64,000 nucleotides of DNA from Aerococcus urinaehominis. GTDB taxonomy: Bacteria; Bacillota; Bacilli; Lactobacillales; Aerococcaceae. The notes below the pieces were generated by a model that saw nothing but the letters and a program-made list of their open reading frames with translations, searched no databases and was not told where the DNA came from. The translations under genes and the position numbers were made by a program. Below are positions 1-45,867 of the stretch, one piece after another. Position 1 is the first letter of the stretch, and each line of letters opens with the position of its first letter. The stretch covers positions 1,222,387 through 1,286,386 of the forward strand of contig NZ_CP014163.1 in assembly GCF_001543245.1 (NCBI RefSeq), written 5' to 3'.

Positions 1-18
1 TGGGTCTTTTGCAACCAT
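1..18 (-). CDS. Start of an unknown gene cut by the window edge
   Basis: Only the first six codons lie in the window (reading M-V-A-K-D-P on the minus strand). The start is supported by a GGAGGT ribosome-binding site about eight bases upstream of the ATG. It lies 84 bases downstream of the stop of a 20-codon ORF on the same strand and may share its promoter. Nothing can be said about function. Confidence 0.4.
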
Positions 19-102: not shown

Positions 103-165
103 TTATTTATTGCGGAAAATTGTAAAAATAGCTTCTAAAGCTGCTGCGATTGGTAGGTTATTCAT
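103..165 (-). CDS. 20-residue hydrophobic peptide, unknown function
   Basis: The minus strand encodes MNNLPIAAALEAIFTIFRNK followed by TAA. The ATG is preceded by an AAGGAGG ribosome-binding site with six-base spacing, and a near-consensus promoter lies 42 bases further upstream, so translation is plausible although the ORF is very short. After the proline at position 5 the sequence is alanine/isoleucine/phenylalanine rich with one Glu and a basic C-terminal end, which would suit a short membrane-active or amphipathic helix. Size and character recall phenol-soluble modulins and leaderless bacteriocins, but there is no recognisable homology. It could instead be a leader peptide for the gene that starts at position 18. 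I do not recognise it. Confidence 0.5.
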   Translation of the reverse strand: MNNLPIAAALEAIFTIFRNK

Positions 166-206
166 GATTGGCCTCCTTTCTCTTTTAAAATTTATTAACA
201 CTGAGA

Positions 207-235
207 ATTATAGCTGATTGTAAATTTAATGTAAA
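207..235 (-). promoter_or_regulatory. Strong sigma-A promoter for the small peptide gene
   Basis: On the minus strand TTTACA (235-230) and TATAAT (212-207) are separated by exactly 17 bases, one mismatch from the vegetative consensus. The -35 hexamer is itself one half of a TTTACA-N5-TTTACA direct repeat, so a DNA-binding regulator at this repeat would touch RNA polymerase. Confidence 0.7.
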
Positions 236-279
236 GGTAATTGACTACAAATTTACATCAATTTTACATAAAATTTACA
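219..279 (-). promoter_or_regulatory. Array of WalR/PhoP-type direct repeats (five half-sites)
   Basis: Plus-strand TGTAAA occurs at 219-224 and 230-235 with a 5-base gap; TTTACA occurs at 252-257, 263-268 and 274-279, again with 5-base gaps, so the half-sites recur every 11 bases. On the minus (gene) strand the upstream three read TGTAAA-N5-TGTAAA-N5-TGTAAA, matching the WalR consensus TGTWAH-N5-TGTWAH, and the promoter-proximal two read TTTACA-N5-TTTACA, the orientation of PhoP boxes. Binding by an OmpR-family regulator is inferred. Confidence 0.6.
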
Positions 280-342: not shown

Positions 343-372
343 AAAAGCTGTGACTCGCTTGGTCACAGCTTT
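343..372 (-). terminator. Rho-independent terminator of the DUF1846 gene
   Basis: An 11-bp inverted repeat (AAAGCTGTGAC / GTCACAGCTTT) with a short loop lies just after the stop codon of the gene at 385-1893; on the minus strand it is followed by TTTATTT. Confidence 0.75.
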
Positions 373-384
373 ACGATTAAAGGT

Positions 385-1893
385 TTAACTATTATAAAGA
401 TTTTTGCTGGCGTAATTAGCATCGCTTGTAATGTCAATACCCAGACGTTTCAGCACTTGTTCATTCTCTAGGGAAGGCATGAAGGTGGCGTGGGCTTGGC
501 AGTTAACCAACTGGTCTAACTGGTCATAGGCAATTTTGGCAGTTGGGTTAGTGACGGCAGAAATAGCTAGGGCGATTAAAATTTCATTAGCATTTAAAGC
601 TTGGACCCGATTACTGAGAGCATCGCGCTTGAGTTCTTGGATGGTATTTAAAATCATGGGTGCTACCAGATCAATATTATCGTTAATACCGGCTAAGGTT
701 TTTAGGCTATTGACAATAATAGCAGCTGAAGCGTCCATGACGTCACCATTACGTCCAGTGACAATCTGGCCGTCAGCTAGTTGCAGGGCCATCACACCTT
801 GGATGTTGTCAACGCCTAGACGGTCTTGAACACTGGCTTCATAGTCACGGGCTGGTTGTACCACGACTCGGTCAGTTGGCTGTAGGTCACTTTCTTCCAT
901 AATGATTTGCATCCGTCGGCGGACCTGCTTGTCGGCATGGCCTTTAAAGTAGTCATTTTCAATATTGAAGTAGCGGCGGATAATTTCCTGGTTAGCAGCC
1001 TTAATAACTACCTCGTCATCGATAATGCCGGAAGCAATGTAGTTAACGCCCATATCAGTTGGTGATTGGTAAATAGAGGGGGCCTCAGTGATGTTTTCAA
1101 TAATTCTTTTAATCACGGGGAACATATTGATATCACGGTTATAGTTAACCGCCACTTCACCGTAGGCTTCATAGTGGTAGTTATCGATCATATTAACATC
1201 ATTGAGGTCAACAGTGGCAGCCTCATAAGCAATGTTAACTGGATGCTTAAGGGGCAGGTTCCAAACGGGGAAGGTCTCGAACTTGGCGTAAGAGGCGTTC
1301 ATACCCCGTTTATGCTCATGGTAGAGTTGGTTGAGGCAGGTAGCCAATTTACCAGAACCTGCGCCTGGTGCTGACACAACCACAACAGGTTTGGTTGTTT
1401 CGATATAGTCGTTTTTGGCAAAGCCTTCAGGGCCAAAAATAGCTTCAATATCAGTTGGATAACCTGCAATAGCCTGATGGGTGTATACCTTAATGCCACG
1501 GTTTTCAAGGTTCTTAATAAAACCCTTGGCAGCTGGCTGGCCAGCATAGCGGGTAAGCAGGACACTATTAACCGGTATATGGTAATTTTCATATTCACGG
1601 ATTAGACGTAATACTTCTTCATTATAGGGGATGCCGTAGTCGCCACGTATTTTGTTGGATTCAATATCACCCGCATAGATACAGATAATAATTTCAGTCT
1701 TGTCACGAATGGTTTGCAAGAGCTTCATCTTGGCATCCTCGTCGAAGCCCGGCAGGACCCGCTTAGCATGCTTGTCACCGATAAGTTTGCCCCCAAATTC
1801 TAAATAGAGTTTATCCTTGCCAGCAACTCGACTGAGGATTTTTTCAGATTGTTCTTGTAGATACTTGTCTGTATCAAAACCAATTTTTCTCAT
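385..1893 (-). CDS. DUF1846 family protein
   Basis: A 502-residue cytosolic protein whose sequence, starting MRKIGFDTDKYLQEQSEKIL, is recognised as the DUF1846 family (COG4868), widespread in Firmicutes and of usual full length here. A glycine-rich segment GAGSGK at residues 177-182 follows a hydrophobic strand (PVVVVSAPG) and looks like a P-loop, so nucleotide binding is possible but not established. No signal peptide or membrane segment is seen. It is transcribed alone, divergently from a MocR-type regulator, with its own terminator at 343-372. The molecular function of the family is not known to me. Confidence 0.85.
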   Translation of the reverse strand: MRKIGFDTDKYLQEQSEKILSRVAGKDKLYLEFGGKLIGDKHAKRVLPGFDEDAKMKLLQTIRDKTEIIICIYAGDIESNKIRGDYGIPYNEEVLRLIREYENYHIPVNSVLLTRYAGQPAAKGFIKNLENRGIKVYTHQAIAGYPTDIEAIFGPEGFAKNDYIETTKPVVVVSAPGAGSGKLATCLNQLYHEHKRGMNASYAKFETFPVWNLPLKHPVNIAYEAATVDLNDVNMIDNYHYEAYGEVAVNYNRDINMFPVIKRIIENITEAPSIYQSPTDMGVNYIASGIIDDEVVIKAANQEIIRRYFNIENDYFKGHADKQVRRRMQIIMEESDLQPTDRVVVQPARDYEASVQDRLGVDNIQGVMALQLADGQIVTGRNGDVMDASAAIIVNSLKTLAGINDNIDLVAPMILNTIQELKRDALSNRVQALNANEILIALAISAVTNPTAKIAYDQLDQLVNCQAHATFMPSLENEQVLKRLGIDITSDANYASKNLYNS

Positions 1894-17082: not shown

Positions 17083-17338
17083 GGTTACTAGCTCCTTTGC
17101 TTATTTAACTTCATTATAGAACACTAAGAAAAGAATGCCCACTAGTGAGCCTAAAAACTTTTAAATATTACAGATATATTACAAAATATTTAAAAGATAG
17201 ACTTTTTAGGAAAATTTTTAAACCATTCGGGCGGTGGGAAAGCTGCCTTATCAGCTGTCCTATCTTAAAAAATTGTTTGCTGAGAAAAACTGAAATCTGC
17301 TTAACTATGTTATATAAAGTCGAAATTTATTAAATTTT
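17083..17338. other. AT-rich intergenic region, no gene assigned
   Basis: This divergent region between the FAH-family gene and the wall hydrolase gene is AT rich. A 62-codon plus-strand ORF at 17145-17333 has no ribosome-binding site and an unlikely composition, so I do not call it. The WalR box and promoter of the next gene lie at its right end. Confidence 0.5.
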
Positions 17339-17355
17339 TGTAATCTATTTGTTAC
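17339..17355 (+). promoter_or_regulatory. WalR (YycF) box upstream of wall hydrolase gene
   Basis: TGTAAT-CTATT-TGTTAC is a perfect match to the WalR consensus TGTWAH-N5-TGTWAH. Its centre is about 32 bases upstream of the -10 TATAAT at 17377-17382, i.e. near -42, a position typical of activation, and no good -35 hexamer is present. walR itself lies 1.6 kb downstream. Confidence 0.75.
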
Positions 17356-18967: not shown

Positions 18968-19681
18968 ATGAGTAAGATTCTAGTTGTTGACGATGAAAAG
19001 CCGATTGCTGATATTTTAACTTTTAACTTGAAGAAAGAGGGTTACCAGGTAGTGACAGCTGGTGACGGGGAAGAAGCACTGGAAAAATTTTCCGCTGAAG
19101 ATCCTGATCTGGTCGTACTTGATTTAATGCTGCCAAAAAAAGATGGCCTAGAAGTTTGCCGGGAAATTCGAAAAACTAGCCAGGTGCCTATTATTATGTT
19201 AACAGCCAAAGATGATGAGATAGATAAGGTATTAGGTCTGGAGCTGGGTGCCGATGACTATGTCACCAAGCCCTTCCAAAATCGGGAATTTGTGGCTCGA
19301 ATTAAGGCTAATTTACGCCGGACGGCTCAGTTGCGAGAGGCTGAAGCTGTTACTAATGAGGTGGCAAATAAACAAATTGTGATTGGCGACCTAATTATTC
19401 ATGAAGATGCTTATGCTGCTAGTCGACATGGCGAAGAATTGGACTTAACGCATCGTGAATTTGAGCTTTTACATTATTTGGCCCAGCATGTTGGTCAGGT
19501 GATGACGAGAGAAGATCTTTTACAAACGGTATGGGGCTACGATTATTTTGGTGATGTGCGGACGGTGGATGTAACAGTCAGACGCCTAAGGGAGAAGATT
19601 GAGGAAAACCCTAGCCATCCTAATTTACTGATGACCAGACGAGGTGTCGGCTACTTTATTAAAAATCCTGACCAGGAGTAA
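18968..19681 (+). CDS. walR: Response regulator WalR (YycF)
   Basis: A 237-residue OmpR-family response regulator that controls peptidoglycan hydrolase genes in Firmicutes. Start chosen at ATG 18968 with AGAGGTG upstream; the in-frame GTG at 18956 overlaps that site. Receiver domain 1-120 with phospho-Asp52 (VVLDLMLP) and the Thr/Lys switch residues (MLTAKDD, VTKPF); winged-helix DNA-binding domain about 135-232 ([21 protein letters not shown]). It is the first gene of the wal operon; walK follows after five bases. Confidence 0.97.
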
Positions 19682-45103: not shown

Positions 45104-45120
45104 TGTAAAGATCTTGTAAA
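45104..45120 (+). promoter_or_regulatory. WalR/PhoP-type direct repeat upstream of phoU
   Basis: TGTAAA-GATCT-TGTAAA, a perfect match to TGTWAH-N5-TGTWAH. It is about 56 bases upstream (centre to centre) of a TATAAT at 45168-45173. Because the downstream gene is phoU, either WalR or a PhoP-like regulator could be the ligand. Confidence 0.6.
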
Positions 45121-45201: not shown

Positions 45202-45867
45202 ATGATGTCAAACTTACGCCGTAACTTTGATTTACAGTTAGAAGAGATTAACGAAAAATTCCAAACTATGGGCTTACAAGCTCTAGATGCCGTTCGCAAA
45301 GCTAATACAGCCTTAATTAATCGTGACAAGGAACTAGCTCAGGATGTTATTACTAGTGATGTTGAGATTAATTTATTGGAAGAATCGATTGAAAAGCAAA
45401 CAACTCAGGTTATTGCCTTACAACAACCTGTAGTTTACGATTTACGATTAGTAATTGCTGTACTGAAGGCTTCTTCTGATTTAGAACGTATTGGTGACCA
45501 TGCAGTTTCAATTGCCAAGCGGATTACTGACTATCGCGGTCGTGACCGGGTAGGCCAAATTGAAGAAGCCATTGAAAATATGGCTAATACTGTATCTGAA
45601 ATTGGTAAAGAAACGGTTAATGCTTTTGTTAACCAGGATGAGAAGGCCGCCATTGCTATTGCTAAACGTGATAGTGAAGTAGATGAGGCTTATCATGAAA
45701 TCTTCAAGATGGTTGTTAAAGGTCTTGAGGAAGATGATGAGTCTATTGAAGCTGGCCTAGCTTATATCTCTATCATTGCTAACCTTGAACGGATTGGTGA
45801 CTATTTGACTAATATCTGCGAACGAACAGTTTATATGGTAACTGGTCAAAATGTAGAGTTAAACTAG
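45202..45867 (+). CDS. phoU: Phosphate signalling regulator PhoU
   Basis: A 221-residue all-helical protein made of two three-helix PhoU repeats, each with the metal-binding E/D-x-x-x-D motif: LERIGDHAVSIAKR (about 94-107) and LERIGDYLTNICER (about 195-208). PhoU links the PstSCAB phosphate transporter to PhoR and restrains phosphate uptake. Here it is not next to pst genes. Two adjacent ATGs could serve; the second (45205) has better spacing to GAGGAGG. Confidence 0.92.
   Translation: MMSNLRRNFDLQLEEINEKFQTMGLQALDAVRKANTALINRDKELAQDVITSDVEINLLEESIEKQTTQVIALQQPVVYDLRLVIAVLKASSDLERIGDHAVSIAKRITDYRGRDRVGQIEEAIENMANTVSEIGKETVNAFVNQDEKAAIAIAKRDSEVDEAYHEIFKMVVKGLEEDDESIEAGLAYISIIANLERIGDYLTNICERTVYMVTGQNVELN

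Follow-up and report, generated by a model that had tools for sequence, protein, structure and literature searches.

An orphan 20-codon reading frame behind a promoter overlaid by Pho-box-type half-sites

Judged from its sequence, the interval between a DUF1846 gene and a HIT-domain gene holds what we consider to be a real transcription unit, which combines an operator of known kind with an orphan micro-ORF of 20 codons whose function is unproven. The explanation that we favour, to which as a whole we give about an even chance, is that a sigma-A-type promoter on which a Pho-box array is superimposed would drive a transcript that first encodes the 20-residue peptide and then probably reads into the HIT-domain gene. 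A PhoP/PnpR-type regulator, encoded beside pstSCAB and phosphorylated at low phosphate, would bind the 11-base-spaced TTTACA sites and would most likely repress or damp the peptide promoter in phosphate starvation, instead of acting as a classical activator. The peptide itself could be a recently arisen micro-protein that acts locally, for instance at the membrane; alternatively, its ORF may be translated simply alongside expression of the HIT-domain gene. In this arrangement an undescribed micro-ORF would be placed under a recognisable nutrient regulator, and the out-of-register spacing of the promoter makes it easy to test whether a sequence reveals the sign of PhoP control. Should the peptide be functional, the locus would present a very young gene in the course of acquiring two-component control.

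Layout of the locus and its half-site array

The window, i.e. the whole 64-kb stretch of DNA that was analysed, corresponds to G000:C1:1222387-1286386, within a genome (G000) that consists of one contig of 1.83 Mb. Read along the minus strand, the DUF1846 gene is followed by a hairpin, three opposed half-sites, two TTTACA half-sites, the hexamer TATAAT, the Shine-Dalgarno sequence, the 20-codon ORF and, after 84 bases, the HIT-domain gene:

1-18, minus strand: first codons of the HIT-domain gene, which extends left of the window to G000:C1:1221970 and has its own Shine-Dalgarno sequence, GGAGG
103-165, minus strand: 20-codon ORF, MNNLPIAAALEAIFTIFRNK plus stop (ORF translation; Pfam and homologue searches empty)
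172-179, minus strand: Shine-Dalgarno sequence AAAGGAGG, ending 6 bases 5' of the ATG
207-212, minus strand: -10 hexamer TATAAT (promoter scan)
219-224, minus strand: Pho/WalR half-site TTTACA, within the promoter spacer, 6 bases from the -10
230-235, minus strand: half-site TTTACA doubling as the -35 hexamer, with a 17-bp spacer
241-246, plus strand: degenerate sixth half-site TTGACT, which fills the gap in the same 11-base register
252-279, plus strand: three TTTACA half-sites (252-257, 263-268, 274-279) with 11-base spacing, opposed to the peptide
344-372, minus strand: terminator-like hairpin separating the DUF1846 gene from the peptide unit (terminator scan)
385-1893, minus strand: DUF1846 gene, upstream of the peptide unit and on the same strand

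A preliminary description of this DNA had reported a TTTACA-N5-TTTACA repeat with three more half-sites in the opposite direction just upstream, all in 11-base register, and all five sites proved to be exact: those at 219-224 and 230-235 read TTTACA on the peptide strand, and those at 252-257, 263-268 and 274-279 read TGTAAA there. The accompanying estimate that such a number exceeds chance also held. Indeed, the 219 bases from the ORF start to the DUF1846 stop contain five half-sites and three N5-spaced pairs, and among 20,000 dinucleotide shuffles of this stretch a single one reached at least five half-sites and a single one contained any N5 pair. Over the whole genome the exact triple array occurs in two places (the peptide locus and G000:C1:1567061-1567088), and when up to three mismatches are allowed it is found in 20 places, against 6 for a reversed control pattern. 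The peptide ORF is thus preceded by TTTACA-like direct repeats with the 11-base spacing that characterizes genes of the Pho regulon.

The promoter, described earlier as near-consensus and as having its -35 within the repeat, does read TTTACA-17-TATAAT, with 11 of 12 matches. A promoter-like site is by itself unremarkable, since the 951 bases scanned hold four such sites and shuffled versions have a mean of 3.8. The three opposed half-sites are left without account by the explanation that we favour. A divergent promoter making use of them was considered and rejected, as the plus strand offers no TANNNT -10 at N9 or N20; the sole candidate in the plus-strand scan near these sites was a 10/12 match, TTTACA-18-TACAAT, which lies inside the array.

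Phosphate context of the operator and its candidate regulators

In the same genome, these half-sites precede the genes of PstS, of a purple acid phosphatase, of a GDPD and of a solute-binding protein, and the array also precedes a gene with no Pfam match. When the 241-base region was used to search 60 genomes, the own one among them, 13 gave matches. Outside the own genome these amount to 22 places, of which 21 correspond to the array or promoter part and one to the Shine-Dalgarno region. In 10 of the 18 relatives' loci read, the array adjoins a pst, phoU or phosphonate-binding gene, as judged by reading the translations, and the remaining loci comprise unknown genes, a surface-protein-like gene and a candidate small RNA. 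Further pstS-type promoters with the array were recovered by a pattern search of 76 family genomes. In addition, the passages of PMC4913102 available to us give TTTACACAATCTTTACA as a putative PnpR Pho box before pneumococcal pstS1. As the same form stands before phosphate genes and in this putative pneumococcal box, we read the operator at the peptide locus as one of the Pho-box kind and not as an undescribed element.

The multi-site PhoP/WalR-type operator initially proposed is in this way upheld, well above chance, and refined to the Pho-box type of the family, and the 11-base-spaced half-sites, whose occurrence in relatives was to be checked, are present at pst genes across the family. The suggestion that the locus is something undescribed stands for the peptide, for which no relative was found, and falls for the operator. 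The Gram-positive Pho regulon (PhoPR of B. subtilis, PnpRS of S. pneumoniae) shares with the peptide locus TTTACA-N5-TTTACA and its 11-base register, and a PnpS-type kinase with a regulator beside pst is also found in the own genome. The locus departs from that regulon in its N6 instead of N9 or N20 distance to the -10, in its three opposed half-sites and in its product, which is a 20-codon ORF and not a phosphate-acquisition gene.

Two regulators come into question. A kinase that matches the PnpS model with 439 bits (cut-off 400) is encoded, together with a response regulator, directly before pstSCAB (PstS by profile match, PstC, PstA and PstB by reading), so that, by the PnpS model, the genome holds a cognate two-component system for a Pho regulon. 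Against the YycF and PhoB models the response regulator stays under the curated cut-offs, and its presumed PhoP/PnpR role follows from its place beside pstSCAB. WalR is encoded within the window, at about 18974-19672 (406 bits, cut-off 340). The WalR motif is TGTWAH-N5-TGTWAH, and it is present upstream of the peptide when the same sites are read from the other strand; because the two motifs are the same sites on opposite strands, the sequence does not separate Pho from WalR. The exact TTTACA form nevertheless favours Pho.

Control of the unit by WalR, as part of cell-wall homeostasis and with or without PhoP cross-talk, appears to us distinctly unlikely, even if the half-site and spacing of the WalR (YycF/VicR) regulon are compatible with the locus. 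Its gene lies in the window, TGTAAA-N5-TGTAAA fits its motif, the three distal sites read TGTAAA towards the peptide in the manner of a TGTAATCTATTTGTTAC pair near a secreted-protein ORF, and the part of PMC13403408 considered here reports cross-talk between PhoPR and WalRK in B. subtilis. However, all five half-sites have the exact TTTACA form that is common at Pho genes in the own genome, both WalR-like pairs found at 17 kb are more degenerate than the array, and the product is no recognisable wall enzyme. These two pairs (17167-17183 and 17339-17355) are located between the secreted-protein ORF and a divergent ORF, the second of them 64 bases before the former, and possibly mark a WalR target in the same window as walR. 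Elsewhere in the window, phoU (about 45202-45867, plus strand) lies apart from pstSCAB and has TGTAAA-N5-TGTAAA (45104-45120) 82 bases upstream, in an orientation opposite to that of the other Pho promoters.

Promoter spacing and the sign of control

The distance between the last half-site and the -10 is N6 at the peptide promoter, versus N9 or N20 in all six other Pho-type promoters scored in the own genome: it is N9 for pstS, the purple acid phosphatase and GDPD, and N20 for the solute-binding protein, the gene with no Pfam match and a candidate small RNA. These six were chosen from 20 places, the unscored ones being mostly shifted registers of the same arrays or lacking a clear gene. The peptide promoter does not therefore have the -10 spacing of its counterparts in the genome. 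In a wider survey of 34 hand-chosen rows (33 distinct sites, L055 being the same as L077), an N9 candidate was noted in 19, N20 in five, N6 in five (four scripted, L066 by eye) and none of these in a further five (L041, L049, L051, L052, L076); at L068 and L073 the N9 candidate is not the first-ranked one, and L111, L116, L118 and the phoU pair (L006, opposite orientation) were left unscored.

As a result of the N6 spacing, the upstream TTTACA falls at the -35 position with a 17-bp spacer, and a promoter with 11 of 12 matches should work without help from an activator, while a regulator bound there would cover it. Repression or damping is favoured since the half-sites nearest the -10 overlap the -35 and the spacer and do not lie N9 or N20 from the -10, and it is from this spacing that we infer the sign. 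The tagA/tagD promoters of B. subtilis, which are repressed by PhoP~P according to the portions of PMC6232261 and PMC13403408 used here, provide a precedent for PhoP~P as a repressor; the likeness would be one of sign. For CiaR, a related regulator, the section of PMC3091779 consulted gives promoter predictions with a -10 distance of ten.

The opposite sign, in which PhoP/PnpR~P would activate the promoter despite the odd spacing and the product would be a phosphate-starvation peptide, seems unlikely. The coding-strand TTTACA direct repeats upstream of the -10 have the orientation seen in the scored Pho promoters, and the array is one of the two exact triple arrays of the genome, both of which are in agreement with activation; yet the spacing is neither N9 nor N20, and the -35/-10 pair should need no activator. 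Returning to repression, its most far-reaching version is a highly improbable one: a new 20-residue peptide would have joined the phosphate response of one Aerococcus-like species by way of an inverted promoter logic, with synthesis at ample phosphate and shut-off by PhoP~P during starvation, and would tune Pst/PnpS or the membrane.

The N6 layout is found also before a 37-codon ORF (G014), before a TPR-protein gene (G017) and in 11 genomes of genus g5. In the latter (L080-L090) it takes the form TTTACA-N5-TTTACA-N6-TATAAT, and the next gene is an RpiR-type regulator in all eight loci read (L087, L089 and L090 being outside these eight, with the RpiR-type call made by Pfam for one), a context without evident phosphate link. 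In G014, the 37-codon ORF has a good Shine-Dalgarno sequence and sits behind TTTACA-N5-TTTACA-N6-TAGAAT, followed by a hairpin-like stretch (L046/L066, 1501-1860), between a metallophosphoesterase-like gene and another gene as judged by reading. Weak matches to it occur elsewhere in the 76 family genomes (E 0.02-0.92, mostly in long frames), and as a relative of the peptide it was set aside, the two having no visible likeness. Under the far-reaching reading above, and with this different ORF (L066) in a second species of the genus, the N6 promoter type may recruit micro-ORFs repeatedly.

A further Pho-type locus of the own genome (L106/L008, G000:C1 about 1567090 down to 1566980, minus strand) has TATAAT 20 bases downstream of a triple TTTACA array, and a candidate small RNA of about 75 nt (three hairpins; terminator-like stem with a CCUGCCCCCA loop). 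In G010 (L054), half-sites likewise stand 20 bases before TATAAT and the C-rich terminator loop is similar, and both loci lie between the same two ABC-protein genes by reading. A DNA search of 15 genus genomes gave no other full match to the small RNA of the own genome, and no Rfam family was matched. The C-rich small RNA of these two species is a candidate for Pho control, and would be a more promising lead than the peptide.

The peptide and its link to the HIT-domain gene

Judging by the signals that precede it, the peptide is probably translated. What had been noted as a tiny ORF with a very good ribosome-binding site is indeed an ORF running from 165 to 103 on the minus strand, with AAAGGAGG 6 bases before its ATG. 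This sequence followed by ATG after 4-9 bases is found three times in the window, in a count that took ATG only and left out GTG and TTG starts, and the other two cases are ORFs of 427 and 323 amino acids. The codon content leans to coding without settling the matter: as high a score is reached by 134 of 2,081 overlapping intergenic stop-free stretches, a set that still contained the unmasked peptide ORF, and 309 of the 945 coding pieces do not exceed the score of this ORF.

Searches for relatives, which are weak for a 20-residue query and were made in a set of one genome per species, returned the own genome and one match of E 0.76 in G010 from 76 family genomes (E ≤ 10), the own genome alone from 395 genomes of the order (E ≤ 0.1), and nothing from phages and plasmids (tblastn, E ≤ 10), from the PDB or from Pfam (E ≤ 1). 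The G010 match was rejected as a relative, since it falls outside the listed ORFs and neither an array nor a frame preceded by a Shine-Dalgarno sequence was seen there. The conservation of the peptide that was to be looked for in relatives did not materialize in the genomes searched. No description of the peptide came up in the literature listings searched. The missing relatives speak against a conserved function; the translation signals still favour a translated ORF, and we regard the peptide as a plausible, unproven orphan micro-gene. That it is a frame open by chance, or a remnant within intergenic DNA that has diverged, without functional product, is conceivable and on balance doubtful: the failure of every search to yield a homologue and the indecisive codon content are in line with it, but the pairing of AAAGGAGG with ATG at the proper distance is otherwise confined in the 64 kb to two long ORFs, and promoter, Shine-Dalgarno sequence and ATG stand in the correct order.

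The peptide had been pictured as an Ala/Ile/Phe-rich helix with a basic end, possibly membrane-active. It is in fact hydrophobic with a basic end, and its amphipathicity appears weak: the moment of residues 6-20 is reached by 3,991 of 20,000 shuffles, and that of residues 4-17, which are more amphipathic, by 753 of 20,000; the net charge is +1. Small DUF1127 proteins, which are widely distributed and which the part of PMC12501420 considered describes as binding the sensor kinase PhoR, are likewise very small ORFs tied to phosphate control, the peptide's tie being by its operator alone; unlike them it is an orphan, and no sequence relation is claimed.

The gene that starts at position 18 was identified as that of a 144-aa HIT-domain protein, and is co-directional with the peptide ORF as supposed, both being on the minus strand. 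Since the terminator scan detected no terminator between the two, the operator could serve both, and the regulatory investment may be one for the peptide-HIT pair. The more specific proposal of a leader controlling this gene fared less well. The RNA of the unit shows no folding beyond that of shuffled sequences (z 0.22, with 113 of 200 shuffles folding at least as well), no stable or terminator hairpin was detected between the peptide ORF and HIT, and there was no Rfam match. A leader or attenuator for the HIT gene is in our view very unlikely; the shared strand, the lack of a detected terminator in between and a HIT start 84 bases past the peptide stop would suit it, but besides the folding result the two ORFs do not overlap, and no such ORF was seen in the relatives read. 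Of the 60 genomes, 47 have HIT matches, and the 700 bases upstream were read in seven of them (L011-L017) and in L125, a Clostridia MAG: none of the eight has a peptide-like ORF there, HIT having its own start.

Among the seven relatives, one, L016 (G017), has an N5-spaced pair (at least 5/6) in the 700 bases before HIT, facing the other way, and L125 has no exact half-site upstream of HIT, exact sites alone having been checked. The stretch after DUF1846 in eight relatives contains neither the peptide nor HIT; within the genus, 9 of 15 genomes (own included) match DUF1846, and G001 and G002 carry DUF1846 and HIT at distant places or on different contigs. The peptide-HIT operon thus appears not to be conserved among the relatives read.

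Some promoter elements do occur near HIT in other genomes. In G001 and G002, HIT is preceded at a distance of 371-591 bases by two TTTACA sites that lie 33 bases from each other, with N9 between the second and a TATAAT. This is a hint of Pho control in the vicinity of HIT, with activator spacing and not the N6 layout. The TTTACA/TATAAT elements of L011 (-594, G002) and L012 (-407, G001) are followed within about 50 bases by a hairpin and T-run recognised by eye, which in the G001 copy the terminator scan did not list, and possibly represent a Pho-type promoter of a very short RNA. At L016 (G017, 1264-1501), an alkaline phosphatase gene and HIT are divergent, with TTTACA half-sites in the gap. 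Left of the window, a ribosomal protein L13 leader (RF00555) is present at L009 5245-5298 on the plus strand.
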